This document shows positions 37,552 to 54,755 of a DNA stretch of 64,000 bases, piece by piece. Position 1 is the stretch's first letter. Every line of letters begins with the position of its first letter. The stretch comes from a virus: positions 1 to 64,000 of IMG/VR virus record IMGVR_UViG_3300009103_001934. One strand, 5' to 3'. A program made the position numbers and the translations under genes. The notes under the pieces were generated by a model that worked only from the letters and a program-made list of their open reading frames with translations, searched no databases and had not been told where the DNA came from.

Positions 37552-40500
37552 ATGGGAGACAATAGTTCAGCCAGCGGCGGTTCAACCGCCCCATCGACAA
37601 CCCTCGGTACAGAAAATACGTGGAATGTGTCGTTAGAGAGGATACAGGGAGCGGGGACCGCGTTCTTTTGTACTATCGAAATCATACAGTGGGATCCCGA
37701 CAGGAATACTTACGACGGGTTTGACAGCACAAAGCTTTGGGCTGAGAGCCACAGCAGCAAAGCTATTTGTATAAACGATAGCCCCAACGTAAACATCCCA
37801 ATCAAACAGGCGGATGGCTCCCCGCATATAACCCCCTTTGATACAACTGACCTATCGAAACCCCTCGTATTAAAAATGGAGGGCTGTTCGGTCACCAGCA
37901 GTGATCCGACACTAGAAATTGCTTTAGTAAGGTTAAAGGTAAAAAGCTGGTCTTCCGAGGCTGAAGCAAAAGCTGGAGCCGTTGGCGGGACTTTACCTGA
38001 CGGAAGTACTCCAGTGGCGATCGATGATGATGCGCAGGTTTTTGAGTTAACGACGCTCCCAGACTCGGTATATTATTTAAAGTTTAAACCTTGCGCCGGC
38101 GCGGATGATATGAGCGCGCCATGGACTTCGCAGCCAGTAGGATCGACTCATAGATGGGGAGGTGGAGGTCCGGGCGGCGGCATTACGAAGCCTGATTCCT
38201 CATTTTATGAAAGCCCCTGCAAGGCGTCATACAATACCAAGAATCTTGAGTACTTGAAAATAGTAGATGACGAATGGGGTGGAGCAGGCAAGCCCGTTGT
38301 GGGAGACGTCTTTAAGTCGGACTTAAGTTGTATAATACAGGTCGGCAGCCGGGGGTCAGACGGTACAGTTACGCCCGGTACGGTCGGACCCACCGCTTGT
38401 GGGGCAACCCCTTCAAATCATGTTTCATTCAAGGAGTGTTATGAAATTACTGAGTACATGGATGAAGACAAGTGGAAACTAGAATCTGCGAACGCAAGTC
38501 CTCCCGGCGGCGATTTTAGTAAAAGAATTTATAATCATGGCACTGCCTCGAACGACGCAACAACTATAAATCCCAAGACGGGAGGAGGGGGAGCTTTGTA
38601 CAGGGGCGGGAGATTCCAGTGTGCTTCTACGGCCGCGGGCGGAACAGGTAGTGTTTGGGCCTGCATCGGTAACGAGACCATGGACGAATATCATCTTTCA
38701 GAGGCCTTAGCTAAGAGCTTAATATCTATGGGATGGGGGGAAGGCTTGTCTAATTTTAGAGCGACAGCTTTTGAAACCACGATAGATCATGTTCAAAAAG
38801 GGCTAGCAGGGGCGCCGTCTGCAACGAAGGTCGCTTGGACTAGGATGGTGGGAGCGGGACACACAAGGGTACATAGAGCTTCATTACCGGGCTCATCAAG
38901 TAATTACAACTGGAATGGGGAAGTAACTTTCCAACCTAGCACGTCTTCTGGATACGGTAAACCTTTAGTGGATAGTGTCTCCCTGTGGTATGCATTTACA
39001 ACTTCAGCGTCACAGTCTTACGATTTCTTTGATCGATATAGGCAGCAAATAGAAATTGAGGTTAATAAAGCGCGAAAGATGAAAGGGAGCGAAGCAACGC
39101 TCGATTATGAAGTAGTTAGAGCTTGGGATCCGGAATATAAAAAGATATTTATTGAACAAACGATGCAGAACTCCGCCTCCCTTGCTGTAGGCGGAAAAAT
39201 AAATGAAAATTTTGAGTTCGGTATATCTATGAACGTCTCTCAGACGACCAGAGAAGGCGTGGACGGTTATGAAAATCCTACTACCGAAACCTCGACAAAC
39301 GTATCTTGCAGAGCGTACGTTACGTGGAGAGACCTGTTGACTTACGCTTCTGGAGACGGAGACCCAGACGCAGAAGGTAGGTGGACAGATGCTGTCACGG
39401 TAGCGATTGATTTAGGACAAGCTGGAGGTACGGTAAAGAAAAAGATGTCTTACTTTAAGACTGACCCAGCGACAGGCAACCCCATTCATGCAACGACTAC
39501 CGAAAGGGCGCATAGACTAGACAGCAACGGTAATCCCGTAAACGGTAATGCACACGGTCCGGGTTCCCCAGCAGATATTTTTGCGCAAGAGGAGGTCGCA
39601 GGAGATTGGAAAGATAGTCTTTTTGAGATACAGAGTATTAGTATTAATTATGATTTAAAATCAAATAACGGCTGGGCGATAAGCGTATCCTCAAGCTATA
39701 ACCCAGCAACAGGAGCTACTAATATAAACCCGAGCGTATCGTACACTTCTGAGATACCCGGTTGGGAAAATGTCGTATATAGTTTAGATTGGAATCCAGA
39801 TAAAAGTAGCCCCGGATTATCATTAGCGTATAGGAGTGATGACATTTTTCAAAAACTAACCGACAGAGGCCTAGGGACAGAAACATTTTTCGGCAGACCG
39901 ATGAAGCTTTTCCTTAATGCGGGGATTTCCGTTGAAGAAGTAGGCGGGCTGGGCGCGGGGAAAACACTCAAACCGAGTTGGAGTTTTAACGGAACTTGGG
40001 GTAGGCCAGCGGGGCAAAGTATTCTCGAAGGGTTCAATTATGATATTAATATCCAAGAAGGAAGGCTGGCAATCAGTAATGCCGTAAATCTTTACACGCA
40101 TACGACGGAGACAGATCAAGTTCAGGTTAGTTGGGGATTTGATGCAGACCTCGGCGACCCAACCGCCCCGTTTTGGGGAGGGGTAGGACTGGATAATTCC
40201 GGAGTCCACTTCGGGCTTGATGTAAAATTTGAGAAAAATATCGCCGAATTCGGAGACGTATGGGGTAAGCTTATTTTAAGATCGAACTTTACAGCTGGAC
40301 TAAGGGCAGGAACTAGAGTGGGAACAGGCGGGGGAATCTCTGGTGGGATGGCACAGTTTGGTCTTTTCGGTAGAGTAGGAATTGAGTGGGACAACGGTAT
40401 ATTGGGGTGGTTAAAATTTCCATTAAATGTTATCCCCGGAATTGGTGCAGCTTTTGGCTGGAATTTTGTTTTAAGAGCGGAGTCTACCTACGGAGGGACC

Positions 40501-43500
40501 GTAACGGGAGCGCAGGCCGTAATGGCGCTGGGTCCGATAATGTGGAACCTTAAGCCTGTAGATAAACTTCGCGAGCATCTCCGAAGACAACGGGACCCTT
40601 GGGTAGAAGACATTCCTCTTATCGGAGGGATATTGTCAACTTTACCTGTTGTTGGCGTTCTTGGTCCCCTCGAAAATGAAATACAATATTTAGCTAGAGC
40701 GGGTTCGTATAGAGCGTTCGCTTCACTTGGGGCAGCAGCAAAAAGCTGTAGGGATAAACAGAAGACGGCTTTTAGAACGATGTGGCAGGCTATAGTTTCT
40801 TACCAAAGAGGACTTGGGGTCAATAGCGTAAAACCCTGCTTAGCTCAAGATTATACTGATGATGGGGGGACTGTCCACCCGGGCGTGGATGCTTTCTGGG
40901 AAATCGATTCAAGTGGAGTAACGCATTTAGTTATAAAGATTCCAGCGGGGTTCTATCAGCACGCTAATCAGAGAAAGTCTTCATATTGGTATCATTATGA
41001 TAGTATATATCATCGAAACCCCGCCACTGAAAGAGCTCGCAAAACGGCTGCTCAGCGCGCTGTCGCGACAGATGGCGATGGTGCCGATTTAGCGGGCCAC
41101 CCAGTCCCAGCAAGTGATGTGGAAATCCGAGCAGGAGATAGTGCTAAAATAAGAAAGTATCTTTCTGGCGAACGCTGGAGACTAATTGCTTGTGAAGACG
41201 ACAATACAGGTTACCCCGCCTGTAGATTAAAGAAAAATTTCTTTGAAGTGAGAAATTCGGTGAACCCACAATACCATGCTCGATTTAATATTGATAAGAA
41301 AAAGTGGCTAGATAGGCATAAGCCCTGTAATTGTTTGCGTTCAGAATTTGACAAATGGACTCAGCACGAGCACCACAGATTGCACGACTTGGTCCAATTC
41401 CCGGAGCTTGATGGAAGTGATGGGTATGTACAAGCGGTATTAACGGTAATAGATGACTTTGTTTACAATAGAACAATAGGTCACTGCCACGAACTCGCGG
41501 ACGACGCTTGGGAAGATACGCGGGGGAATACAAAGTCTTGGGAAGAACTGTTCAAGACCCAAGCAGGCAACCCTAATGAACCAGTAGATCCTCCCGGCGG
41601 TCTCACTGGAACCGTAGACACAAGTGACACAAGCAATCCCGAAACGACAGGTACGTTGCTCGAATGGCAGGAGATGGACAAGGCACTTAAAGCTATGGAC
41701 AACGGAGATAAGTTCATGTGGAACGGTACAGAATATGAGATCAAAGAGGGTAAGCTGGGTAAGATGGACTACGGAGACGAAAGTTATCGTGTCGCGCTGG
41801 CTGGGGCGATAGCAAGTTTATGGGCTACGAGTTGGGAATCTAATGCTTGGGCACATGCCGGAAAAGATCAAGTGGAGGTGGAGGGAAGTACAGACCGGCA
41901 AGGCAAGTGGGATCCGCCTAATGGGGGCGACACACTTGGGGATAGTACTAATGAAACCGCACAATTTGTAGCCAATCGAGACGGCCCATCAGCAGGAGCG
42001 GCCAATCCATCAAACTGCGGATGTGTCCCTCCGGACAGTGTTGGCTTCTTCGAAGGCATCGCGCGGGGCGTTTGGCGCATCATTTGGGTTCCCGGTTGGT
42101 TTTTGGGTGACGACGAAGCGCCCATGGACCCATGGCGCCCGGCAATTAATCCTAACTCAGCTTGTGTTAGGTTTTGTATAGAGAGTATGCTTAAGAATGA
42201 TAAACCTTATCGGTATAATTTAATTGGTACGGTCTGGGGGTGGCTAGCTTCTACTATAAAATTTGGAACAAAAAATTGTTGTGAGAGGGGCTCGGGTACC
42301 GGAGGAGGAGGCCCGGGAATTGACTCCAATTTATGTCAAGGTCTATATGAAAGCTGGGAGCACTGGAAGGCTAAATACGAACTGGATTTAGATCGATGGA
42401 CGGGCATAGCGGAGTGCCCCATGAAAGACTCTACGTCGGCCTGTGTTAGCTGTATGCCAAGTTTTTCTACAGGAATAAGTAGTATTCGTAATATAGCCAT
42501 ATTTGGAGGAGCAGGGGATAGGGGGGATGACTTATGCTGTAATAGTCGAGCATACTTCAGGGTATGGAGATATTTATTATCCCAAGCTGGACGAGCTAGA
42601 ACAAAAGCTAGGACAGCGAAGAGGGAGTTAGATATAATCCCGCTAACTATATATTGGAGAAGTGCAACCTGTCAGAAATCGGGGTTGTTAGGTAGAAACC
42701 CCGATGGTAGAGCTCTTACTGCCCAAGGAAATTATTACCAACCGCACCACCCCCTTACGAATGACGGCGTAAATCATGTAACCCAGAAAAAATGGCATAA
42801 GGCGGATGATGGAGTGACCTTCCTAGACGATGGAAGTATAAATCCAGAGGTAGAGGTAGATTGCATAAGCTGTTCGCAAGAAAGAGACGACGAAGGAAAG
42901 CTTAAGTATCCCCCCAACATGGGGACATTACATACCCCGTCCGCTGGAGTGAGTATAGGGCCAGCAGTTTCAAGTAATCCACCAACAAATACACTGTTTT
43001 CTCCCAACGCGCATGACGATTGGCTTAAATATCAACTTAGCTCGTCCATAGCCCCATCTAACAGTGACGAAAGAAAAGTGGCTGCGCCTTCAAACTATTA
43101 TCTTCATGATACGGGTATGGGATTAAGCCAAACTACGGTCTACAATCCTCCTACTTATGACGAGTGGGGACCCAAAATACTTAGGCTTTATGCTTATTTA
43201 TCACATAGGGCAGATGGAATAAATTTCACACTAAACTCTCCAGAGTATCATATAGGTAACGACCTGTGCGGGAGCGCGAGTTTAACAGTGGATGAAGCTA
43301 CAGACCCAGCAATAGATAATTGGCACGCATCCGCGGCGGCTTACGGAGATTATTCATTCTATAAATTTGGATCATGGACCGCTCCTTCTTCGACAAGTGA
43401 TTATAATGATAAATTTTCACCTCACTGGTTTTGGCCGATGAGCGAAGTTATTGTGGGTAAAGGACATTTTAGATGCCTTTCGCACGCTGCGGCAGCGTGG

Positions 43501-46398
43501 AATACGATTATTCAGGAGTTCGGAAATATAGCGAATGAATATTACAACATAAAAGCTGGAGAATGGCATCATGTTGAAAAGAATTTTGGAAAATTACAGG
43601 ATTTGTGTTATGAATTTTATACAAAATTAAATAACTCCGAGCCAGATCCGTGGGGGGGCGGATCTCGTTCTGACGTTTCATCATTTTTTGCCGACGCACC
43701 GGCAGGAGCCACTTCATTTGTGGACATAGCAGACCAGAATATGAGTGTACTAAAAAGGCTAACTGGCACTGCCAAGTTCACTATGGATGCTGATGCGAAG
43801 GCACTGTTAGAAGCGTGCAGGCGAATATTTTTAATGTGGCTAGGTAAAGAATGGAGAGCTTACAGGCAAGAACAAATTACTAATTCCCGAACAGGGGTTT
43901 ATAAGGAGACAGATTATAATAAAAAAACTTTACTTGGCGGCGGCTATATGGGCCAAAAGGTGGGAGAGAGCTTAACTCAAAACGGAGGAGGTAATAAGTG
44001 GTACTGGCACAGGTTTGACATTTCAGAACCGATGAATGGGAGCGTTAAGCCTGTCCATAATGCATTAGTGGGCACACAGCAAGGGGCCACTTATACTGAT
44101 TTTTCTAGTTATCATTTATTTATAAATGAAAACGGAATGAAGAACAACATTTATAAAGGAGTAACTCGAACGCCGCTACTAGGAGAGTATTATGCGGGCT
44201 ATTGGGGTCATATTAATACTAAGCATTATTGGGTAGAAAACCATATAGCCGACGAAGATGATGAGGGTCGCGATAATGTCAACAAGTGGATATGGAATAA
44301 GTTTTATAACCCAGATGGGGGAGCCTCTAAAGAATATTATACTGGCGATATATTATACTGGTGGAATCCCGTTGATGCTAGCGCTTTAGATTTAGCCACC
44401 CATGACTATACCGTAGATGTAGCAACGGGTGGAAATAGCGCCCAGAATTGGCCGGTCGAACCACCTAATATTGGTGCCGCCGTGACGACATGCAGAAACT
44501 GCCCTAAATCTCCCCCCGCTGACGACCCCAATTGGGGCGAGGTGACCAAGGGTAGCTCGCTACCTTTAAAATCTGTACCTGAAATGGGCTGGCGCTTCTC
44601 GGTGGGGCACAATTGGGGTCATTATTGTCAAGGGTATGATACAGTACTGGGAAGATACCGCGTGAGCCCGTTTGGGTGGAAAATCTGCGGTATGTTCGGT
44701 AGCGGTAGAGGCTTGGATCAGTTTAAAGAAACCATGAAGAGGGCATTTAGGAGACACTTCCAGATATATTTCGGGCGTAGAGCTACCCCAGTAACCTCAG
44801 GGCAGGATTATGGAGAGGGAGATCCTTCAAGTATGAAAGTCAGCCCCGCAGCACCATTTAGATTTTCTTTAGCGTTCGCTCTTGAGGGGAACATATCTAG
44901 CCTTGATCAATATTATACACATAAACGTCAAGATCTTAATAACCCAACGGACGACAGTATGATGACAAGTATACTTTTCGCAAACATGTTTAAGCCGCGA
45001 ACAGATGCCCAGTACGAAGATACTCAAAGCGATGTTAGAAAAAGATTCAGAAGATTGAACGCTTATGCGGAAGAACTACTTGGGACCCATAATGGAGGAG
45101 TGAATGAGTGTAAAAATATTTGTAGCTCTCCTCCGGACAAGATGATCCGAGGAATGCAATTAGTTGCTCAATTGTTCGGCGATATAGAGTACGGTGTGGA
45201 CGCCGGTAAGATTAATGATCCGGGCAGTCATCCGGCGGTAGCAGGTGAACCTCACGCCGGTAAACACGGACCTAATGCAGACGGAATAACATTTGGTTTT
45301 CCCTTGGGAGAGGCAGCGCCGATAGTATCCAAAAGAGTAGGCTCCGCGGGCAGCCCGACTGCCACTGATGCCTCAAATGCTTGGTGTAGTGGCGTCGGGT
45401 CCCCCTGCGGGGCTTCCATCAAGTCTACAACAGGAGCAAGGACGCTTTATGGCACATCTATAATGGGCAGCAACTCGCAGCCCGACGGCTGGTACATTAT
45501 AAAGGCCACGATGTCTAATTCTAGCGGGGCGGGCGAATATGACCAGCGCAGGCTTGTAGAAACAAGCCCCGGCGACGGTGATTGGCATCGTGATCCAGCA
45601 CAGACGCCTAATTATATTAGGAGGATCGCGTGCGGCTGCGGCCCGACAAGATTGGAGATGGATAATTGGATATTCATGCGCGCAGGCGGTAGAGAATTCG
45701 AAAAATTTACCCTCAAAGAGATTATGGGTGTATGGAATACATACGAGCAATTTTATGCTCCCTGTCCGTTAAAGATGGTTGAAAATACGCTGGGCGGGAG
45801 ACCTTCGCCGGGCCTCCCAAACGTAGGCAACGATCCCAACTCGGGACGGGCGGCTTGGACACTTGGTGTAAGGTCTTTCTATAATGCGTATGGTAATAAG
45901 GATTGGTATTCCAACAAATACATAAGCGCCTGCCACCCCGGCAATTATAAGCGTAGTCTAAGTAGAAGCAGCGATAGCGCCTCGTCGAGGTATACCATAT
46001 CAGCTTATAGACACATGAACGGGGTACGTGGCGGCAAAGGACAAGGTATTGTTAACAAAGGTTACCCAACATGGGAGGACGGTCGCGGATCGTCAGGCGG
46101 CAGCAGGGACCATCATGTTCCCAAGACACGGCACGGGACCCTCGATGACATGCCGGGTGCAATCCACTTCACAGATCATAGAACATGCTATATACATTTT
46201 AAAGCAGCGTCTAGGCCTCTTTTTACTGCCACGGGCGCCGCCAACTGGTCGTGGGGGCAATCCGGCATAACGACGCACGGCTATGCAACGAATTTTTACT
46301 GGGGTGCTGTGCAGGCCCGGACGCAGTTGTATGGAGGCAGTACCGCCCGAGCGAGTTTCTATATTACCCAGCCACACATGTGTAAATGCCCCGGATAA
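37552..46398 (+). CDS. Giant virion-like protein of 2948 residues, unknown
   Basis: No known family was recognised. The frame is unbroken for 8.8 kb. Residues about 550-985 are dense in alternating polar and aromatic beta-strands (WAISVSSSYNPATG, VQVSWGFDADLG, GLRAGTRVGTGGGISGG, AQFGLFGRVGIEW), which recall a beta-barrel or beta-solenoid. Cys pairs recur later (CGCVPPDS, CISCSQ, CRNCPKS, ACGCGPT), suggesting bound metals or disulfides. The C-terminal third is Trp/Tyr/Gly-rich. No signal peptide. It starts 97 bases after the Thr-rich protein, with no evident ribosome site. Probably a fibre, baseplate-attached or ejected internal protein. Confidence 0.6.
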   Translation: MGDNSSASGGSTAPSTTLGTENTWNVSLERIQGAGTAFFCTIEIIQWDPDRNTYDGFDSTKLWAESHSSKAICINDSPNVNIPIKQADGSPHITPFDTTDLSKPLVLKMEGCSVTSSDPTLEIALVRLKVKSWSSEAEAKAGAVGGTLPDGSTPVAIDDDAQVFELTTLPDSVYYLKFKPCAGADDMSAPWTSQPVGSTHRWGGGGPGGGITKPDSSFYESPCKASYNTKNLEYLKIVDDEWGGAGKPVVGDVFKSDLSCIIQVGSRGSDGTVTPGTVGPTACGATPSNHVSFKECYEITEYMDEDKWKLESANASPPGGDFSKRIYNHGTASNDATTINPKTGGGGALYRGGRFQCASTAAGGTGSVWACIGNETMDEYHLSEALAKSLISMGWGEGLSNFRATAFETTIDHVQKGLAGAPSATKVAWTRMVGAGHTRVHRASLPGSSSNYNWNGEVTFQPSTSSGYGKPLVDSVSLWYAFTTSASQSYDFFDRYRQQIEIEVNKARKMKGSEATLDYEVVRAWDPEYKKIFIEQTMQNSASLAVGGKINENFEFGISMNVSQTTREGVDGYENPTTETSTNVSCRAYVTWRDLLTYASGDGDPDAEGRWTDAVTVAIDLGQAGGTVKKKMSYFKTDPATGNPIHATTTERAHRLDSNGNPVNGNAHGPGSPADIFAQEEVAGDWKDSLFEIQSISINYDLKSNNGWAISVSSSYNPATGATNINPSVSYTSEIPGWENVVYSLDWNPDKSSPGLSLAYRSDDIFQKLTDRGLGTETFFGRPMKLFLNAGISVEEVGGLGAGKTLKPSWSFNGTWGRPAGQSILEGFNYDINIQEGRLAISNAVNLYTHTTETDQVQVSWGFDADLGDPTAPFWGGVGLDNSGVHFGLDVKFEKNIAEFGDVWGKLILRSNFTAGLRAGTRVGTGGGISGGMAQFGLFGRVGIEWDNGILGWLKFPLNVIPGIGAAFGWNFVLRAESTYGGTVTGAQAVMALGPIMWNLKPVDKLREHLRRQRDPWVEDIPLIGGILSTLPVVGVLGPLENEIQYLARAGSYRAFASLGAAAKSCRDKQKTAFRTMWQAIVSYQRGLGVNSVKPCLAQDYTDDGGTVHPGVDAFWEIDSSGVTHLVIKIPAGFYQHANQRKSSYWYHYDSIYHRNPATERARKTAAQRAVATDGDGADLAGHPVPASDVEIRAGDSAKIRKYLSGERWRLIACEDDNTGYPACRLKKNFFEVRNSVNPQYHARFNIDKKKWLDRHKPCNCLRSEFDKWTQHEHHRLHDLVQFPELDGSDGYVQAVLTVIDDFVYNRTIGHCHELADDAWEDTRGNTKSWEELFKTQAGNPNEPVDPPGGLTGTVDTSDTSNPETTGTLLEWQEMDKALKAMDNGDKFMWNGTEYEIKEGKLGKMDYGDESYRVALAGAIASLWATSWESNAWAHAGKDQVEVEGSTDRQGKWDPPNGGDTLGDSTNETAQFVANRDGPSAGAANPSNCGCVPPDSVGFFEGIARGVWRIIWVPGWFLGDDEAPMDPWRPAINPNSACVRFCIESMLKNDKPYRYNLIGTVWGWLASTIKFGTKNCCERGSGTGGGGPGIDSNLCQGLYESWEHWKAKYELDLDRWTGIAECPMKDSTSACVSCMPSFSTGISSIRNIAIFGGAGDRGDDLCCNSRAYFRVWRYLLSQAGRARTKARTAKRELDIIPLTIYWRSATCQKSGLLGRNPDGRALTAQGNYYQPHHPLTNDGVNHVTQKKWHKADDGVTFLDDGSINPEVEVDCISCSQERDDEGKLKYPPNMGTLHTPSAGVSIGPAVSSNPPTNTLFSPNAHDDWLKYQLSSSIAPSNSDERKVAAPSNYYLHDTGMGLSQTTVYNPPTYDEWGPKILRLYAYLSHRADGINFTLNSPEYHIGNDLCGSASLTVDEATDPAIDNWHASAAAYGDYSFYKFGSWTAPSSTSDYNDKFSPHWFWPMSEVIVGKGHFRCLSHAAAAWNTIIQEFGNIANEYYNIKAGEWHHVEKNFGKLQDLCYEFYTKLNNSEPDPWGGGSRSDVSSFFADAPAGATSFVDIADQNMSVLKRLTGTAKFTMDADAKALLEACRRIFLMWLGKEWRAYRQEQITNSRTGVYKETDYNKKTLLGGGYMGQKVGESLTQNGGGNKWYWHRFDISEPMNGSVKPVHNALVGTQQGATYTDFSSYHLFINENGMKNNIYKGVTRTPLLGEYYAGYWGHINTKHYWVENHIADEDDEGRDNVNKWIWNKFYNPDGGASKEYYTGDILYWWNPVDASALDLATHDYTVDVATGGNSAQNWPVEPPNIGAAVTTCRNCPKSPPADDPNWGEVTKGSSLPLKSVPEMGWRFSVGHNWGHYCQGYDTVLGRYRVSPFGWKICGMFGSGRGLDQFKETMKRAFRRHFQIYFGRRATPVTSGQDYGEGDPSSMKVSPAAPFRFSLAFALEGNISSLDQYYTHKRQDLNNPTDDSMMTSILFANMFKPRTDAQYEDTQSDVRKRFRRLNAYAEELLGTHNGGVNECKNICSSPPDKMIRGMQLVAQLFGDIEYGVDAGKINDPGSHPAVAGEPHAGKHGPNADGITFGFPLGEAAPIVSKRVGSAGSPTATDASNAWCSGVGSPCGASIKSTTGARTLYGTSIMGSNSQPDGWYIIKATMSNSSGAGEYDQRRLVETSPGDGDWHRDPAQTPNYIRRIACGCGPTRLEMDNWIFMRAGGREFEKFTLKEIMGVWNTYEQFYAPCPLKMVENTLGGRPSPGLPNVGNDPNSGRAAWTLGVRSFYNAYGNKDWYSNKYISACHPGNYKRSLSRSSDSASSRYTISAYRHMNGVRGGKGQGIVNKGYPTWEDGRGSSGGSRDHHVPKTRHGTLDDMPGAIHFTDHRTCYIHFKAASRPLFTATGAANWSWGQSGITTHGYATNFYWGAVQARTQLYGGSTARASFYITQPHMCKCPG

Positions 46399-46401
46399 AG
46401 C

Positions 46402-46430
46402 TTGATTTGATTGTGGAATAATGCTATGCT
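46402..46430 (+). promoter_or_regulatory. Sigma-70-type promoter with near-leaderless spacing
   Basis: TTGATT (46402-46407), 17-base spacer, TATGCT (46425-46430), seven bases to the ATG at 46438. It lies immediately after the stop of the giant gene and opens the replication operon. Confidence 0.62.
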
Positions 46431-46437
46431 TAATAGC

Positions 46438-47946
46438 ATGTCGAAACAGATTTTTTCTCATCAAGTTGAAAAGCACACGTTAAGCGGGCTATTACAGTAT
46501 CCACAAATTTTTCCAGACATAGATCCCTTTATTACAGAAAAGGATTTTTATCAAGATGTTCATTCTACTATTTATTCAGTAGTTAAACAGTCTCTCTTAA
46601 ATCAAGAAAAGATAGATAAAGTTCTTATAGCTAATAAAATTAAAAACCTTGGAATAAGTTTTAAGGATGAAATTAATATTTTTGATTATGTAGAGGATTT
46701 GTTTTTTACACAAATAACAGAGGATACCACCCTTGATTCAGCAAGAGAATTATCCAAGCTCAGGATGTGTCGTGAGATTCACGGGACATTTAATGAAGGG
46801 AGAAAATATATTGAAGATAATCTTAATGATAATGTTGATGAAATTATAGCAAATTGTGATAAGATTTACGGCGACAAACTCGAAAACTTTTCGTTCGGCA
46901 AAGAGCCCGTGGATATCTTCGAAACGCTCGAAGACGTAGTAGAAGAACGAGGTAATGATCCGTCTGAAGAAAACGGGTTTGTAACGCCTTATACAGAATT
47001 TAATCGACTTTTCGGTGGCCTTTTACCCGGAAATATATACTCTATTATTTCTCGCCCCGGAGAGGGTAAGACGACTTGGATTAATGATATGTGTATAAAG
47101 AGCGCACAAATTAATGAGTGCACGGCTCTAGTTCTAGACACCGAAATGAGCACGGAGGAAATACAATTTCGCACGGCATCCTCACTTTCCGGAGTGCCCC
47201 TGTGGTATATTCAGACAGGAAAATGGAGAGAAAACCCTGAGTATGTGGAGAAAGTTCGTGCGGCTTGGAAGAAAATGAAAGGGAGATCTTACTACCATTA
47301 TTCAGTGGGTAACATGACCATAGATGAAGTATGCTCTGTTATCCGCCGCTTTTATTATTCTAAGGTGGGGAGGGGCAATCCTTTAATTATTGCTTATGAT
47401 TATATAAAAATGACCGGCGAAAAAGTAGGAGCGAATTGGGCGGAGTACCAAGCTATCGGAGAAAAAATAGATAAGCTTAAAAAAATAGCAGAAGAAACGG
47501 GAGCCCCGATTATTACAGCTATGCAGCAAAACAGGAGCGGGGAGCATATAAATAAAAAGGCTTCAAATATTGTAGACGATTCTTCTACTGCCGCTCAGTC
47601 CGACAGGCTTCAGTGGTTTGCTAGTTTTGTCGGAATTTTTAGGCGTAAGGTACAAGATGAGATTGCGATGGACACCGAAGAGTTCGGAACGCACAAACTA
47701 GTCCCACTTAAAACTAGATTCCAAGGTAAAGACGCGGCAGGGCATCAAGACATCATGAGAAGGACGATGGTAGATAACCTTGGCGGTAGAGAAGTACGCT
47801 CTCAGAAATGGGTTCCAAATTATATTAATTTTGATGTAAAAAACTTTGGAGTTGAAGAAAAGGGCTCGTTACGTCATATAATCGAGCGCGAGAATGAAAT
47901 ATACCAAGTAGATGACTTTAATAATAATGACGGAGAGTTATTATGA
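46438..47946 (+). CDS. dnaB: Replicative DNA helicase, DnaB family
   Basis: 502 residues from ATG 46438; in-frame starts at 46411 and 46426 fall inside the promoter. Hexameric 5'-3' helicase of the replication fork. The N-terminal domain begins QVEKHTLSGLLQYP. The RecA-like domain has Walker A SRPGEGKTT (about 205-213), LVLDTEMSTEEIQFR (H1a), Walker B-like PLIIAYDYIKM (about 315-325), GAPIITAMQQNRSG (H3) and an H4-like RRKVQDEIAMDTEEF. Length agrees with DnaB. ATGA overlap with the primase gene. Confidence 0.92.
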   Translation: MSKQIFSHQVEKHTLSGLLQYPQIFPDIDPFITEKDFYQDVHSTIYSVVKQSLLNQEKIDKVLIANKIKNLGISFKDEINIFDYVEDLFFTQITEDTTLDSARELSKLRMCREIHGTFNEGRKYIEDNLNDNVDEIIANCDKIYGDKLENFSFGKEPVDIFETLEDVVEERGNDPSEENGFVTPYTEFNRLFGGLLPGNIYSIISRPGEGKTTWINDMCIKSAQINECTALVLDTEMSTEEIQFRTASSLSGVPLWYIQTGKWRENPEYVEKVRAAWKKMKGRSYYHYSVGNMTIDEVCSVIRRFYYSKVGRGNPLIIAYDYIKMTGEKVGANWAEYQAIGEKIDKLKKIAEETGAPIITAMQQNRSGEHINKKASNIVDDSSTAAQSDRLQWFASFVGIFRRKVQDEIAMDTEEFGTHKLVPLKTRFQGKDAAGHQDIMRRTMVDNLGGREVRSQKWVPNYINFDVKNFGVEEKGSLRHIIERENEIYQVDDFNNNDGELL

Positions 47947-48848
47947 ACAGCGAATACATAAGGCAGGTTCTGGGTGACTTAGGTTACACCCTGAGAGATT
48001 ACGGCGGCTACTTCAGAACGCGCCCTCTTTATCGTGACTCAGATAATGACGTAATCCTTTCGATCAACAAGGACACAGGAAGATGGAAAGACTTTAAGGA
48101 AGGAATATCTGGCGGTCTAGAAGATTTAGTTAAATTAACATTAGATTGTAACATAGAAGACGCCAGAAAGTTCCTGCAATCAAAAGGATCGGATAGACCA
48201 GTAGCAATAATAAAGCCAGAAGTAAAGCAAAGAAAAACATTAAATGATGAGTTCCTAAATAATTTAATTAAAAATAATAAATATTGGAATGACCGAGGAG
48301 TTTCTGACGAGACTTTGGATGAGTTCGGCGGGGGCGTATGTGAGTCCGGAAAAATGTTAGATAGATATGTTTTCCCTATTTACAGCGAAAGAGGTAAGCT
48401 TATTGGTGTATCAGGCAGAGATATTAATAATGACGAATGGACAAAGCGCCCCAAATGGAAACATATTGGCGACAAATCTTCTTGGACATACCCCACTCAA
48501 GTTAACGAAAGCATTTTAAAAGAATTAAAGCAAGCGATATTACTTGAGAGTATTGGTGATATGCTTGCGCTTTGGGAGAGCGGGATTAGAAACACTTTAG
48601 TTACTTTTGGTTTAGACATTAACATAGCAGTCTTAAATAAGCTCTTGCGTTTGGACCCAAATGATGTTATCATATCATTTAATAATGATAGTGAAAGCAA
48701 TCACGCCGGTAACTTGGCCGCACCAAAAGCGAAAAAGAAACTCCTCAAGTACTTTGACGAAAACCAAATCAAAATTGCGCTCCCGTCGCAAAACGACTTC
48801 GGAGAAATGACCCCAGCGCAAATTTCAGAATGGTACACTAGCCTTTAA
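47943..48848 (+). CDS. DnaG-type TOPRIM primase without visible zinc ligands
   Basis: 301 residues. Makes RNA primers with the DnaB-like helicase encoded just before it. The N-terminal region YFRTRPLYRDSDND, then TGRWKDFKEGISGGLEDLVK follows the CHC2 zinc-domain fold (P-x-R-x-E, W-x-D-F, GG-x2-DLV), but Cys and His ligands are absent. The TOPRIM motif is AILLESIGDMLALWESG (Glu near 202) with IISFNNDSE (acidic pair near 247). It is about half the length of DnaG; the helicase-binding C-terminal domain is missing. Confidence 0.75.
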   Translation: MNSEYIRQVLGDLGYTLRDYGGYFRTRPLYRDSDNDVILSINKDTGRWKDFKEGISGGLEDLVKLTLDCNIEDARKFLQSKGSDRPVAIIKPEVKQRKTLNDEFLNNLIKNNKYWNDRGVSDETLDEFGGGVCESGKMLDRYVFPIYSERGKLIGVSGRDINNDEWTKRPKWKHIGDKSSWTYPTQVNESILKELKQAILLESIGDMLALWESGIRNTLVTFGLDINIAVLNKLLRLDPNDVIISFNNDSESNHAGNLAAPKAKKKLLKYFDENQIKIALPSQNDFGEMTPAQISEWYTSL

Positions 48849-48849
48849 T

Positions 48850-49833
48850 ATGCCGCGTAAAAAGAAAAAGAAAATATTCCTGTCTGCATCTAGAATGAAG
48901 ACTATGGAAACTTGTAGCTGGATGTATTGGTGTAAGTACCACTTGAACTTACCAGACAAAACAAATGATGGAGCCCTACGGGGAACGATCTGCCATCTAA
49001 TTTTAGAGTTACTCCTTAAGCCCCGACACAAAAAGCATTATGACGCGATAATGAATAAAAAATCTATCAAAGCCAGCGTCCCCGTAGATAAAACGGTTAT
49101 TAAATTTCTCAAAGCTAATGACGCATGGAGTAAAGAAAATTATGATCTTTGCAATAAAATGATATACGTGGCGCTTGACCATGACTTTTTTGGTGGAGAC
49201 GGTGGGTTCATAGAAACCCCAGAGCAGGACTTTAAAATCGAAAATAAGAAGCCTAAATATAATATCTATGGATTTATTGATAAGCCAGTTCAATATAAAG
49301 ATAAAAAGCTTCTTAAGATTGTTGATTATAAAACAAGTAAAGCTAAATTCAAAGGGGACGAATTAGAAACTAACATACAGGCCATGATGTACTCATTAGC
49401 CTCCAAGAAGCTGTGGCCTAAACTAAAGCGGCGTATTGTACAATTTCTTTTTCTAAAGTTCCCTCGGTCACCAGCGCAGGAGTTGGAGTACACGGATGAG
49501 CAGCTTAAAGGGTTTGAGTATTATCTAGAAAGGGTTAATAAGATAGTAGAGGAGTATGACGAGAGCGCAGCTAAGGCTGATTATGCTGTGGATAATGGTC
49601 ACCACTGGTTATGCGGCCCCGCAAAGAGCGGTTGGATTTGTCCCTTTCATAAGCCGTTTAATTACTACGTTCTTTTAGATAAAAGCGGAAACCAATTAAA
49701 AAGCTCTTACGAAAATGACTTTCAACCGAAAGACGGACAGACGATTGAAGAACGTCATTACGATGGCTGTCCAGCAAAAAATTGTAATGCAAAAAAATCT
49801 TTACAAGATGACGATCCTTTTCTTGACTTTTAG
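48850..49833 (+). CDS. PD-(D/E)XK nuclease, RecB/Cas4-like
   Basis: 327 residues. The start SASRMKTMETCSWMYWCKYH matches the S-x-S-x6-C-x2-(R/K)-(F/Y) opening of RecB-family nucleases; DGALRGTICHLILELLLK gives the conserved GxxxH; IYGFIDKPVQ gives the first Asp, and KIVDYKTSK gives the D-Y-K catalytic centre (Asp159, Lys161), with NIQAMMYSLA as the QxxxY-like helix. Cysteines at the N-terminus plus later CGPAKSGWICPFH and CPAKNC could form an Fe-S cluster, as in Cas4/AddB, but the count is uncertain. Co-transcribed with the replication genes; likely recombination nuclease. Confidence 0.78.
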   Translation: MPRKKKKKIFLSASRMKTMETCSWMYWCKYHLNLPDKTNDGALRGTICHLILELLLKPRHKKHYDAIMNKKSIKASVPVDKTVIKFLKANDAWSKENYDLCNKMIYVALDHDFFGGDGGFIETPEQDFKIENKKPKYNIYGFIDKPVQYKDKKLLKIVDYKTSKAKFKGDELETNIQAMMYSLASKKLWPKLKRRIVQFLFLKFPRSPAQELEYTDEQLKGFEYYLERVNKIVEEYDESAAKADYAVDNGHHWLCGPAKSGWICPFHKPFNYYVLLDKSGNQLKSSYENDFQPKDGQTIEERHYDGCPAKNCNAKKSLQDDDPFLDF

Positions 49834-49857: not shown

Positions 49858-50619
49858 ATGAGCGAGGTAGTGCCTTTATTCAAATCTCACTATAGCCTAG
49901 GGCGTAGTATACTAACCTTGGATAAGACAGAGTCTAGGTTAGAAGATGGGCCGGATTCTATCATAGACATTTGCGCTAAGAACGGTCTGAAAAGGGTTAC
50001 GTTATTGGACGACAATATGAGTGGGTTTCTAGAGGCGTACCTAAACTCAAAAGAGGCGGGTTTAAAATTGGCGTTTGGTTTAAGATTAAGGATTTTGGAC
50101 GATTGCGAGAACAAGAGTGAAGAATCGCTCTCTAAAACGTGCAAGTATGTAATATTTGCTAAGAATAAGGCTGGTTATAAAAGGCTTATTAAAATTTACA
50201 GCCACGCAGCAAAGGTAGGGTTTTATTATTTTCCGCGCATCGATTTCAAATCTCTTAAAACGTACTGGTCTAATGAGGATCTGAAATTATGTGTGCCATT
50301 TTATGATTCATTTGTATTTAGAAACTGTCTGGAGTATTCCAGTTGCGTACCCGAATTAGATTACGTGCAGCCCACGTTTTTTCTTGAGGATAATAATCTG
50401 CCCTTTGATAATCTAGTCGCAGAGAGGGTTAAGAAGTTTTGTGGTGATAAATATCCCACACAGAAAGTCAAAAGTATTTTTTATAAGGATCAGAAAGATT
50501 TTAAGGCGTACCTAACCTTTAGGTGCATTAATAACAGAACTACGCTGGACAAGCCTAACTTTGACCATATGTGTAGTGATCAATTCAGTTTTGAAAGTTG
50601 GAAAAATGGTACCGTTTAA
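49858..50619 (+). CDS. DNA polymerase III alpha, separate PHP-domain subunit
   Basis: 253 residues. Matches the N-terminal PHP domain of bacterial replicative polymerase alpha: LFKSHYSLGRSIL for the usual HxHSxYSLLDG, then KNGLKRVTLLDDNMSGFLEAY for the ALTDHGNMxGxxxFY strand, KLAFGLRLRI and YVIFAKNKAGYKRLIKIYSHA for the LLAkNxxGYxNLxkL region. Several metal-binding His are replaced, so the domain is probably structural rather than catalytic. It ends where the polymerase core of the gene at 51611 would begin. The stop overlaps the cupin gene by 14 bases. Confidence 0.75.
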   Translation: MSEVVPLFKSHYSLGRSILTLDKTESRLEDGPDSIIDICAKNGLKRVTLLDDNMSGFLEAYLNSKEAGLKLAFGLRLRILDDCENKSEESLSKTCKYVIFAKNKAGYKRLIKIYSHAAKVGFYYFPRIDFKSLKTYWSNEDLKLCVPFYDSFVFRNCLEYSSCVPELDYVQPTFFLEDNNLPFDNLVAERVKKFCGDKYPTQKVKSIFYKDQKDFKAYLTFRCINNRTTLDKPNFDHMCSDQFSFESWKNGTV

Positions 50620-50971
50620 CCCCAAAAAAGTAGAGAAAGATTGGGGGCACGAAATATGGCTCGCAAATAATAATAAGGAAGATTATTGTGGTAAGATTCT
50701 TTTTATCAAACAGGGGTACCATAGTTCCATGCATTATCATGTTGATAAGCATGAGACATTTTATGTCCTAGAGGGGGTTTTACGTGTGGACATGTTACAT
50801 GATATAGCAAAACCAGATCACCATCCGTTTACTATGACCTGTAAGCAGGGAGAAAGCATGGAGATGGAAAGAGGCCAAGCTCACATGTTGAGAGCAGACG
50901 AGGGAGATGTTACTTTAATTGAGATTAGTAAATTTCACAGAGACGAAGACAGCCACAGGCTTTATAGATAA
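50606..50971 (+). CDS. Cupin, mannose-6-phosphate isomerase type II-like
   Basis: 121 residues from ATG 50606; an upstream in-frame start at 50561 would deepen the overlap with the PHP gene. A single cupin barrel: KDWGHEIWLANNN at the N-terminus, SSMHYHVDKHETFYVLEG with HxH...E metal ligands, EMERGQAHMLRA with the second-motif His, and SKFHRDEDSHRLYR, the usual end in sugar-related cupins. It could be a sugar-phosphate isomerase or binding protein linked to mannose/fucose supply. It is oddly placed between the two halves of the polymerase. Confidence 0.7.
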   Translation: MVPFNPKKVEKDWGHEIWLANNNKEDYCGKILFIKQGYHSSMHYHVDKHETFYVLEGVLRVDMLHDIAKPDHHPFTMTCKQGESMEMERGQAHMLRADEGDVTLIEISKFHRDEDSHRLYR

Positions 50972-50972
50972 T

Positions 50973-51614
50973 ATGGATGATCATTTAATTAGATTTAATA
51001 AGGATAAGACACTAGTTTTTATTGACTGCGAGACAGAGAACTTATGTCTACATGGCAGTCATAACCTAGCGTGGCAGATCGCCATGATCAAAACGGTAAA
51101 CGGCAAGAAGATAGACGAGAAGAACTTTATCGTTAAGTATGACAGAGAGCTTCACGTTAGCGAAGCCGCTGCGAGAATCACGCGCTTTAGTCCGACGAGT
51201 CACGCCAAGAAGGCTCTAGAGTTTGAACAGATCTTTCCCACAGTACAAGATTGGCTAGATAATGCGGACTATGTGTTGGGACATAATATTTTAGGCTTTG
51301 ATATTTATTTAATTAAGTTTATGTACGAGAGCCAAGGGTTAAGCTATCAGCACTTAATGGAGAAAACCTTGGACACGATGTGCCTTGTTCGAGGAATCAA
51401 AATGAACGTAGAGCACAAGCCCGAATCAGAAAGCGTTTTAGAATATCAGTACAAACTTTTGCACACCAGAAAGAAAGGCTTGAAGACTAATCTACAGGCC
51501 GTAAGCAAAGAGTACGGCATAGAACATGATTATGAAAAGCTCCACGATGCGATAGTAGACTTAGAATTAAACCTAAAACTGTGGAATAAAATGATTTATC
51601 AATTAAGTATATGA
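50973..51614 (+). CDS. DnaQ-like 3'-5' exonuclease (DEDD family)
   Basis: 213 residues from ATG 50973, one base after the cupin stop. Proofreading subunit for the adjacent polymerase. ExoI is TLVFIDCETENL (Asp-x-Glu near 20-22), ExoII is YVLGHNILGFDIYLIK (His-Asn...Asp near 110), and ExoIII is KLHDAIVDLELNLKLW, with His-x4-Asp (DEDDh). KGLKTNLQAVSKEYGIEHD is the typical preceding segment. An ATGA junction with the polymerase core gene fits co-translation of the two. Confidence 0.85.
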   Translation: MDDHLIRFNKDKTLVFIDCETENLCLHGSHNLAWQIAMIKTVNGKKIDEKNFIVKYDRELHVSEAAARITRFSPTSHAKKALEFEQIFPTVQDWLDNADYVLGHNILGFDIYLIKFMYESQGLSYQHLMEKTLDTMCLVRGIKMNVEHKPESESVLEYQYKLLHTRKKGLKTNLQAVSKEYGIEHDYEKLHDAIVDLELNLKLWNKMIYQLSI

Positions 51615-54157
51615 GTGATTTTTTTAGAGATTTTGAAAACTTAGACTTGAATCTTCATGGAGTTAGATTACCTTCGTTTGAAATCGAGAATGAGATAAAG
51701 AGGGAACTTAAAGTTAGCGAGGACCTTGAGAATTACGATTTTCTTAGAAAAATATGCCTCGATGGATTCAATAAGCTTGACATTAAAAAGGGGACCAAAG
51801 AACACAGCGACTACGTCGAGAGAGCTAAGTATGAATTAAAAACTTTGAAGAGCCTAGGCTTTATCGATTATGTGCTTTTAGTATGGGACGTAATGAATTA
51901 TTGTCACCGGAGCGGCATTCCAACGGGCCTTGGTCGAGGCTCTGCAGCAGGCAGTCTTGTCCTATTCCTTATTGGGGTTACTAAAATTGACCCAGTTAAA
52001 TATGGTTTATATTTTGAGAGATTTGTTTCTAAAATTCGAGCCAAGAAAAAGGTAGTTGACGGCATAACTTACCTTGATGGGTCTCTAATGTGTGACGTTG
52101 ATTTGGATATCTGTTACTACAGAAGAGCGGAAGTCCTCAGATATTTAGAACAGAAGTTCTCTGGAAGCACAAGTAAGATATTGACTCTGAATACTCTTAG
52201 CACCAAGCTCTTAATTAAGGAGTGCGGAAAGATTGTGGGAGAAAAATCGGAGTCAGAGATGAATGAAGTCACGGCGATCATACCCAAGATGTTCGGTATA
52301 GTTAAAGAGCTTACCGAGGCTTATGAAGAGGTAGAGAGCTTTAGGGATTGGTGCGATAAAAACAGAGAAATTTATGACATCGCGTTAAAGTTGAGAGGCC
52401 TAGTAAAAAACAAGGGGGTACACCCCTCGGGAATGCTACTATCGTACGGTAAGATGGACGAGTCTTGCCCGACAGAGCTTTCTTCCGATAAGGACCCCGT
52501 ATCGTCTTACGACATGAATTGGTCCTCTCTCTTTAACGTGAAGTTAGACTTGTTGGGGCTTAGGGGAGTATCTGTAGCGGATGACGTTTGCAAGCAGGTT
52601 GGAATTAAATTGGTTGATATTAATTTGAATCATCCGACAATTTACCAGAACCTTCAAGACCTCCGAACCGCTCACGGCCTGTTTCAGATCGAAGCGGATC
52701 TAGCACATAGAGTCAGTCAGACAGTAAAGCCCCGAAGTTTAGAAGAGTTAAGCGCGGTATTAGCTTTGGCTCGACCCGGTGCGATGGCGTATATGGACCA
52801 ATATGCTACGTATACAAACAGCGATATCTATGATCCCATTCATCCCTTCTTTGACGAGATATTGAAGGAGACGGGGGGCGTCGCCCTGTACCAAGAACAA
52901 CTAATGAAGATGGCGAATAAGGTTGGGTTTACTCTAGATGAAGCGGAAATATTACGGCGTATCGTGGGTAAGAAAAAGGTCGCGGAAGTGCGAAAGTGGA
53001 AGAAAAAGATTAGGGACAAGGTAGAAGAAAATAAGTTAGATAAAGAAGTGGGAGACATTTTATGGAAGGTACTCGAAGACTCGGCGAATTACTCCTTTAA
53101 CAAGGCTCACTCTATTGCTTATGCCGCGCTCGCAGCAATTACGATTTACCTTAAATTCAATTACCCCAAAGAGTTCTTTTTGAGCTTATTAAAAATGACG
53201 AGGCACGAGCCAGACCCGACCAGTGAGATAACCAAGATACAAAGGGAGCTTGCTTCTTTTGGTATCGAACTATTACCTCCCCACCTCACGAGATCAGAAA
53301 TGGATTTTTCAATTGAGGGGGACAACATCCGCTACGGTTTATTATCAATTAAAGGGATTAGCGATAAAAGCATAGAGAAGCTATCTAATTTTAGAAATAA
53401 ATATGCCGATAAATTTGAAACTTTTCAAGCAGCCAAACAGGCAGGGCTCAACATCGGAGTATTGTCAGCGTTAATACAGGCTGGAGCTCTCCAAGGATTC
53501 ACGCAATCGCGCTCTAAGGTCGTTTATGAGGCTCAGGTGTGGAATATACTTACCGAAAGAGAAAAGAGGCTTGTAATGCGGTTTGCGGACGAATACGAGT
53601 ACGATCTGGTGGCGATTATAAAGAAGCTCATGGGGTTCAAAGGGGATAACGGCAAGGATGTGATAAAAGAGTCTAGGTTTGGGACGATCAAAAAGAAATC
53701 TGGACCCTACAAGAGCATTTATGAGCTTAATAGCCGCTCAGAAACGTTTGCTAATTGGTATTACGAAAGAAAGTTATTAGGATACAGTCACTGCGTTAGG
53801 CTTAAAACCATCTTTGATTCTAAGAGGGCGGGTCTTGCGTATGTAGAGGATGTTAGCTCTCTTCGCGCGGGGCAGCGTCCCGTGTTTATAGGCGTTATAG
53901 AGGACATCATTTCGAGAACCTCGAAGAATAAAAATAAATATTTAAAAGTTTCTGTTTCAGACGAGACCGGAATTATTGACTGCCTTATGTTTAATAATAA
54001 TATTGAAGAGTGCGAGACGATGAATAACGGCTTGCCCGAAAAGGGTAATATTGTTATAGTTAAAGGAGTAAAGAAAGAGGACGCTGTATTTGCAAATCTA
54101 ATAGCAGTCCAAGATAATAAGGTTTATACTAAGCTTTCGGAGCTCAAAAATAGTTGA
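51611..54157 (+). CDS. dnaE: DNA polymerase III alpha, catalytic core without PHP domain
   Basis: 848 residues. C-family replicative polymerase. The start reads NYDFLRKICLDGFNKL, the usual region just after the PHP domain, then LGFIDYVLLVWDVMNY and GLGRGSAAGSLVLFLIGVTK. Catalytic Asp pair in CDVDLDICYYRRAEV (near 160-163), third Asp in NVKLDLLGLR (near 310). FNKAHSIAYAALA of the fingers, a tandem HhH region near 590-620, and a C-terminal OB fold (RPVFIGVIEDIISR onward). With the 253-residue PHP protein the total is about 1100, matching a normal DnaE. The gene is therefore split. Confidence 0.9.
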   Translation: MSDFFRDFENLDLNLHGVRLPSFEIENEIKRELKVSEDLENYDFLRKICLDGFNKLDIKKGTKEHSDYVERAKYELKTLKSLGFIDYVLLVWDVMNYCHRSGIPTGLGRGSAAGSLVLFLIGVTKIDPVKYGLYFERFVSKIRAKKKVVDGITYLDGSLMCDVDLDICYYRRAEVLRYLEQKFSGSTSKILTLNTLSTKLLIKECGKIVGEKSESEMNEVTAIIPKMFGIVKELTEAYEEVESFRDWCDKNREIYDIALKLRGLVKNKGVHPSGMLLSYGKMDESCPTELSSDKDPVSSYDMNWSSLFNVKLDLLGLRGVSVADDVCKQVGIKLVDINLNHPTIYQNLQDLRTAHGLFQIEADLAHRVSQTVKPRSLEELSAVLALARPGAMAYMDQYATYTNSDIYDPIHPFFDEILKETGGVALYQEQLMKMANKVGFTLDEAEILRRIVGKKKVAEVRKWKKKIRDKVEENKLDKEVGDILWKVLEDSANYSFNKAHSIAYAALAAITIYLKFNYPKEFFLSLLKMTRHEPDPTSEITKIQRELASFGIELLPPHLTRSEMDFSIEGDNIRYGLLSIKGISDKSIEKLSNFRNKYADKFETFQAAKQAGLNIGVLSALIQAGALQGFTQSRSKVVYEAQVWNILTEREKRLVMRFADEYEYDLVAIIKKLMGFKGDNGKDVIKESRFGTIKKKSGPYKSIYELNSRSETFANWYYERKLLGYSHCVRLKTIFDSKRAGLAYVEDVSSLRAGQRPVFIGVIEDIISRTSKNKNKYLKVSVSDETGIIDCLMFNNNIEECETMNNGLPEKGNIVIVKGVKKEDAVFANLIAVQDNKVYTKLSELKNS

Positions 54158-54188: not shown

Positions 54189-54755
54189 ATGATTCAGTTT
54201 TATAAACCAAATTCTAAAAATACAGGCTCAGCCTGTTCCTTTTGGTCAAATTATGACGGAAGCATAATGTCTTCCTTAATTAAACAGGCCAGCTGGAACG
54301 ATCAGGCAAAGAAAGGATCATTCGCAAAGAACAAGGACAACCCGAACAAGAGAGTTATTGTAAAATTAAATCCGACGGAAGTAGGGGGACTCATAGATAG
54401 TATTGAAACCAATCGTGAATTTTCTAACTATCACAATAGCCAAAACCAAACTCTTCAAATTAAGTTTGCTCCCTATCTGCGTAACGGCGAGCAAATAGGG
54501 TTTTCTTTTTCTGTTTATAAGCAGGACAAAGAAGACTCAGCAAACAAAGCTTCTTATGTTATCGGGTTCACCTTTAGCGAGGCTCGTTACCTGAAAGAGT
54601 TTTTAATTTATGTCCTCCGTAAAATTTTTGAGAAAGAGCACGAAGCTCATCTTAAATCTCAAAAGGAAAAAATTAAAGACATCATGAAAGAGAAGAGGGA
54701 AAATAAATCTAAACCGGATAGATCCCTAGCTAACGAGGAAGAGGATACTTGGTAA
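54189..54755 (+). CDS. Candidate ssDNA-binding protein
   Basis: 188 residues. A compact beta-rich core (FYKPNSKNTGSACSFW, IMSSLIKQASWNDQ, RVIVKLNPTEVGGLIDSI, TLQIKFAPYL, GFSFSVYKQ, YVIGFTFSEARYLKEFLIYV), then a long basic helix (about 140-175) and an acidic tail ending NEEEDTW. The beta-sheet plus helix layout recalls whirly/PUR-type DNA-binding folds, and an acidic tip is the common partner-binding end of phage SSBs. It has its own strong promoter, right after the polymerase. Pattern only, no definite family. Confidence 0.4.
   Translation: MIQFYKPNSKNTGSACSFWSNYDGSIMSSLIKQASWNDQAKKGSFAKNKDNPNKRVIVKLNPTEVGGLIDSIETNREFSNYHNSQNQTLQIKFAPYLRNGEQIGFSFSVYKQDKEDSANKASYVIGFTFSEARYLKEFLIYVLRKIFEKEHEAHLKSQKEKIKDIMKEKRENKSKPDRSLANEEEDTW

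Follow-up and report, generated by a model that had tools for sequence, protein, structure and literature searches.

A DnaE-type DNA polymerase is encoded in two separate genes in the window, by which we mean the whole stretch of 64,000 nucleotides analysed here (positions 1 to 64,000 of IMG/VR virus record IMGVR_UViG_3300009103_001934, itself 178,487 bases long). A stand-alone PHP protein of 253 residues (49858..50619, + strand) and a polymerase core (51611..54157, + strand) are parted by a gene for a DnaQ-type DEDDh 3'-5' exonuclease (50973..51614, + strand). Among uncultured phages that dwell in water, a large group conserves this split and its gene order strictly; the two parts have the PHP and DnaE-core folds and evolve under purifying selection, the metal site of the PHP has been lost, and the exonuclease retains its DEDDh residues. 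Most likely, the PHP protein works in trans as an inactive structural subunit that holds the exonuclease within a PHP-DnaQ-core replicase.

PHP, DnaQ and core, together with a small cupin, form one dense operon downstream of helicase, primase and nuclease genes, in which each gene abuts or overlaps the next. The cupin (121 residues; 50606..50971, + strand; PF07883, 1.5e-6; phrog_7851, 6.3e-24) likely starts at the ATG at 50606, a corrected start that gives a 14-nucleotide overlap with the end of the PHP gene. Likewise, the corrected start of DnaQ is likely the ATG at 50973, one base past the cupin stop, yielding a protein of about 212 residues, as in most relatives (PF00929, 1.9e-14), and the start codon of the core overlaps the DnaQ stop in an ATGA at 51611-51614. 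The PHP protein matches PF02811 (E 7.8e-12) and aligns to positions 62-188 of the phrog_405 (DNA polymerase) profile (E 3.4e-19), while the match of the core to the same profile covers positions 316-1087 only, and the core therefore has no PHP of its own. Its Pfam and PHROG matches follow the DnaE order of palm, thumb, fingers, HhH and OB (DNA_pol3_alpha, 3.7e-54; fingers, 3e-32; HHH_6, 1.7e-19; OB at the C-terminus), and the tau-binding C-terminal domain is missing. The original prediction, made from the sequence alone, of a single DnaE whose PHP and core are separate proteins encoded in one operon with DnaQ is thus borne out by curated profiles. Its further statement that the halves add up to one normal DnaE holds for size, the sum being 1101 residues against 1160 for E. 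coli DnaE and 1065 for that of Streptomyces phage Yara, but not for content, because most helices of the PHP-palm linker are missing from the pair. In E. coli numbering, the PHP proteins stop at around residue 247, an approximate split point given that mapping with addfragments was unreliable for several divergent PHP fragments.

An AlphaFold2 (AF2) model of the PHP protein, built with 30 family sequences, has an alternating alpha/beta fold and a predicted local distance difference test (pLDDT) score of 82.1. The top 17 Foldseek matches in the PDB are DnaE chains or E. coli PHP-epsilon (alpha-epsilon) chimeras, with the PHP of E. coli Pol III alpha as the best (E 4.6e-12), and PolC and free PHP enzymes rank lower; the PHP fold of the original prediction is thereby supported. 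The degradation of the metal site, also foreseen, extends to the whole clade. Using the nine ligands H H D H E H C D H at the positions given for E. coli (PMC3666897), the alignment retains none in 154 of 193 distinct family PHPs and a single one in the remaining 39, at an alignment-ambiguous, variable position, and eight other phage DnaEs serving as control in the same alignment keep 8 or 9. Ligand positions 2, 5, 6, 7 and 8 are held almost without exception by K, R, K, F and S, which resembles the arginine-for-metal replacement described elsewhere (PMC3666897). Estimates of dN/dS, the ratio of nonsynonymous to synonymous substitution rates, by the NG86 method lie between 0.017 and 0.07 for the PHP in closely related pairs, similar to those of DnaQ and core; more distant pairs have saturated dS, and the estimates apply to the pairs where dN/dS could be computed. 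Selection on the PHP is thus strong, and its target is a property other than metal catalysis. A role as a clamp or assembly domain only had been proposed for it: a non-catalytic role is natural given the lost metal site, whereas a role in the sense of a sliding clamp is unsupported.

Conceivably, this dead metal enzyme is no longer part of a polymerase and has another job, such as binding nucleic acid or a host factor, while still encoded in the replication operon, and its strongly conserved family-specific motifs (FKSHYSxGxSILTL, PFYDS and YLTFRCIN), absent from the other aligned DnaE PHPs, would suit such a change. We regard this as improbable, since the linkage of the PHP to DnaQ and core is constant, and since the core would otherwise be without a domain that is reported to be strictly conserved in bacterial replicative polymerases (PMC3666897).

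The core itself is best matched in the PDB by Taq Pol III alpha (1e-87). Its AF2 model (pLDDT 83.6) is closest by Foldseek to M. tuberculosis DnaE1 (7pu7), followed by Taq structures 2hpi and 3e0d, and DnaE chains rank above PolC. Aspartates D162, D164, D166 and D313 are conserved in at least 97% of 183 cores, and we take the catalytic residues among them to be the counterparts of E. coli D401, D403 and D555. The protein stops after the OB domain. Identification as a PolC was considered and rejected on the structure of the core and the C-terminal position of its OB domain; judged from profiles and the model, the core is a C-family DNA polymerase of the DnaE type whose PHP lies in a separate open reading frame (ORF).

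How widely the split is kept was assessed through IMG/VR searches seeded with the core, a core alignment, the PHP protein and a PHP alignment, the last of which was also run once against GTDB genomes; together these gave several hundred loci. After removal of duplicates, the order PHP, DnaQ, core on a single strand was found in all 184 distinct loci that hold both polymerase genes, and a fused PHP-core ORF in none of them, nor did any of these IMG/VR and GTDB searches return one. A search for phages with a fused version, as the original prediction had suggested, thus found none within the clade and fused DnaEs only at about 28-31% core identity. Of the loci gathered with the core as seed, 185 (duplicates included) extend more than 4 kb upstream; 184 of these carry a separate PHP gene upstream on the same strand, and the remaining one (L075) has PHP and DnaQ as a pair (L177) on the same contig, about 8 kb further upstream. 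Because the core loci were gathered independently of the PHP, the conserved split is not an artefact of the search. The cores of the window's clade form their own branch in the tree (support 100/99), and divergence within it reaches down to about 47% identity for the core and 35% for the PHP, from which it follows that the split is ancestral to the clade. No close isolate phage was found: the best INPHARED matches of the core reach about 28-31% identity and, in the records examined, come from fused enzymes; helicase and terminase likewise have distant matches only.

Neither an assembly error nor a recent event accounts for the split. An assembly or frameshift artefact was rejected on its conservation across relatives. 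A recent gene break without functional meaning, produced by insertion of a mobile endonuclease or other cargo or by a frameshift in assembly, could be read from the HNH endonuclease that separates PHP and core in Arthrobacter phage Wollypog, and from several unrelated proteins of about 160-175 residues encoded between PHP and DnaQ, some of them with PD-(D/E)XK-like motifs as judged by eye alone. Such a break is refuted, and we give this reading almost no credence, by the 184 distinct loci in one clade with divergence down to the core identity given above, by the missing linker sequence, by a DnaQ that is always interposed and by the purifying selection on both parts; insertion of a mobile element is possible as the ancient origin of the split.

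The genes inserted between PHP and DnaQ vary widely. Besides the proteins just mentioned, this interval holds cupins, a SET-domain protein (PF00856, 6.9e-13) and others, and in several lineages PHP, DnaQ and core are directly adjacent (L068, L070, L077-L080 and L090). Cupins account for 19 of 110 clustered insert ORFs and occur in a minority of loci, their place being taken elsewhere by an unrelated gene or by nothing. As inserts vary or are absent across loci, the cupin is cargo and not a defining part of the arrangement; a meaningful part for it is not supported, since it is interchangeable and absent in many relatives. Two loci encode a PHP protein with a C-terminal extension of about 180 residues (L220, 1751-3070; L226, 5992-7311) that resembles a free-standing cargo protein (L017) and is a cargo gene fused onto the PHP. 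Between DnaQ and core, 84 of the 184 loci (e.g., L047) encode a conserved protein of about 74 residues (MASMDDIYDLTQKLDESGIEYLL...) that has no Pfam match; it is reminiscent of the theta subunit in size and position, and is a candidate for it.

The exonuclease appears intact. Its DxE, D and HxAxxD motifs are kept, and residues D36, E38, D128, H209 and D214 (ORF numbering from 50919) are conserved in at least 97% of 197 DnaQ sequences. The closest PDB sequence is the PolC-type exonuclease domain 2p1j, followed by E. coli epsilon. The protein ends 17 residues past the last catalytic aspartate and consequently lacks an epsilon tail, and the clamp motif Qxx(L/M)xF was not found near the C-terminus in 203 sequences.

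Taken together, these features would describe a phage replicase of the C-family (DnaE type) with its polypeptide in permanently separate subunits. The dead PHP would dock in trans where the domain sits in cis in DnaE, against the palm/linker side at the N-terminus of the core; there it would stabilise the core and hold the separate DnaQ near the primer. DnaQ would carry out proofreading, and the cupin would be a passenger at a junction that tolerates insertions. In E. coli Pol III, the PHP is the part that binds the exonuclease (PMC3642679, PMC3666897): residues 1-270 alone are well behaved and bind epsilon fully, the exonuclease being located beside the PHP (PMC3642679), and the integrity of the PHP determines the stability and activity of the enzyme (PMC3666897). 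In bacteria, a dead PHP accompanies a separate DnaQ exonuclease (PMC3666897, PMC12926913). Given that the E. coli PHP binds epsilon and sustains Pol III, and that a dead PHP goes with DnaQ, docking in trans and recruitment of DnaQ are the simplest model. It is further supported by unrelated phages that cut DnaE at nearly the same linker and retain both halves.

Several points weigh against this model. DnaQ is devoid of the C-terminal tail by which E. coli epsilon wraps the PHP, so that its attachment to the PHP must differ from that in E. coli. The shortest E. coli PHP truncation was insoluble (PMC3642679), and the phage PHPs, at about 247 residues by E. coli numbering, are shorter than 270. 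In favour of the model, distance matrices of PHP and core and of DnaQ and core show correlations of 0.94 and 0.92, near the top of the range in the operon, yet this is weak evidence, as high values are expected for linked genes generally and primase and core also reach 0.94.

Another arrangement of the same partners would make PHP and DnaQ a stable, separable proofreading module that moves on and off the core and is not a permanent part of the polymerase. The two genes stay together even where the core lies about 8 kb away, they abut or overlap in several lineages, and the isolated E. coli PHP binds epsilon. Nevertheless, we consider this rather unlikely, as in many loci the PHP-DnaQ junction admits cargo just as readily as the DnaQ-core junction, and mutations in the E. 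coli PHP destabilise the whole enzyme, which suggests an integral role (PMC3666897).

With regard to processivity, a scan for the canonical clamp motif, Qxx(L/M)x0-1F, gave no conserved match at the expected place in the core. Neither a beta clamp (PF00712) nor a clamp loader of the delta' type (PF13177) was matched in the 178 kb record, which is possibly incomplete, with positive controls. A host clamp may serve the core through a degenerate motif. We tentatively entertain the possibility of an obligate multi-subunit C-family replicase in which a stand-alone dead PHP docks a tail-less exonuclease, perhaps without a beta-type sliding clamp; if true, this would be a distinct answer to proofreading and processivity among C-family polymerases.

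The neighbourhood of the operon is that of a replication locus. Upstream, and conserved as neighbours by synteny, lie genes on the + strand for a DnaB-like replicative helicase (46411..47946; PF03796, 1.5e-20; phrog_19, 2.2e-54), a TOPRIM primase (47943..48848; phrog_47, 1.4e-27) and a PD-(D/E)XK (Cas4/RecB-like) nuclease (48850..49833; PF12705, 5.1e-19). In freshwater-type loci (e.g., L301-L327), the distance from helicase stop to primase start is almost always 641 nucleotides, and this constant spacing hints at a conserved extra gene there. Positions 37552-46398, ahead of the replication genes, are taken up by one ORF of 2948 residues. Directly after the core, a conserved protein of 188 residues (54189..54755, + strand) had no match in Pfam, PHROG or the PDB. 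By alignment of the tails of its homologues, it has an acidic tail with a final aromatic residue, W or F (EEDTW, DDDEW, DDMEW), and it looks like a candidate phage single-stranded DNA-binding protein.

C-family replicase domains, PHP included, have been described as "organised within a single polypeptide" (PMC3666897). That a large and deeply diverged phage clade has kept the PHP in a gene of its own, and that a second independent split exists elsewhere in the tree, implies that the PHP can act in trans. With a PHP that is dead throughout, an intact DnaQ and a PHP-less core open to expression and recombination, these phages offer a natural system for parting the structural role of the PHP from catalysis. 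DnaE splitting is already known, if rarely described, and it is the version with an interposed DnaQ and a dead PHP that is new: no report of the three-gene arrangement was found in the open-access literature, subscription papers and preprints lying outside the search. Nor did a study of transposon tolerance in Thermus contain a result on insertion into the PHP.

The known split, which a single sentence on Microbacterium cluster EF phages mentions (PMC7302621), likewise places PHP and core in neighbouring genes (Krampusvirus; FreddieHg, AnnaSerena). In FreddieHg, gp57 (345 residues, PHP) and gp58 (767 residues, core) are divided near the PHP-palm linker, at a point further downstream than in the window and near the start of the palm; unlike in the window, no DnaQ or cargo lies between them and the PHP keeps 9 of 9 ligands. 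In Wollypog (gp56/gp57/gp58 HNH/gp59; L338, 4001-7877), PHP and core are parted by other genes within one operon, as in the window, but the parting genes encode a small protein followed by a NUMOD4-HNH endonuclease, with no DnaQ. The tree, some branches of which are long, groups the EF phages, Wollypog and the fused DnaE of Yara (L339) with support 100/100, apart from the window's clade, and because the clades are separate, the two splits are independent. A fused Yara beside an HNH-parted Wollypog makes an insertion-driven split possible, and the series from Yara through Wollypog to FreddieHg, split without an HNH gene, suggests a route to such splits.

Possible fragmentation led us to set aside four further split records, those of Pseudomonas phage PA5, Vibrio phage PVA7, Alicyclobacillus phage KKP_3916 and Bacillus phage vB_BpsS-140. 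In KKP_3916 (L330, 4914-10106), DnaE lies in at least three apparent pieces, annotated as hypothetical, with other ORFs between them, possibly reflecting introns or homing endonucleases. In vB_BpsS-140 (L331, 4833-8440), a PHP (363 residues) and a core (852 residues) are overlapping ORFs in an unannotated gap, either a split or a frameshift.

Among cellular enzymes, the E. coli Pol III core (alpha-epsilon-theta) shares with the window a metal-dead PHP and a separate DEDDh exonuclease. Its PHP is fused to the polymerase, whereas that of the phage is separate; compared with E. coli, the phage exonuclease is devoid of the epsilon tail and clamp motif, and the phage core of the tau-binding domain and of an evident internal clamp motif. 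PolC follows the same order of PHP, exonuclease and polymerase, and the window's DnaQ is nearest to its exonuclease domain (2p1j). Nevertheless, the PolC exonuclease is inserted in the PHP while that of the window is a separate gene after it, and the window's core is of the DnaE type with a C-terminal OB domain, its predicted structure fitting DnaE far better than PolC.

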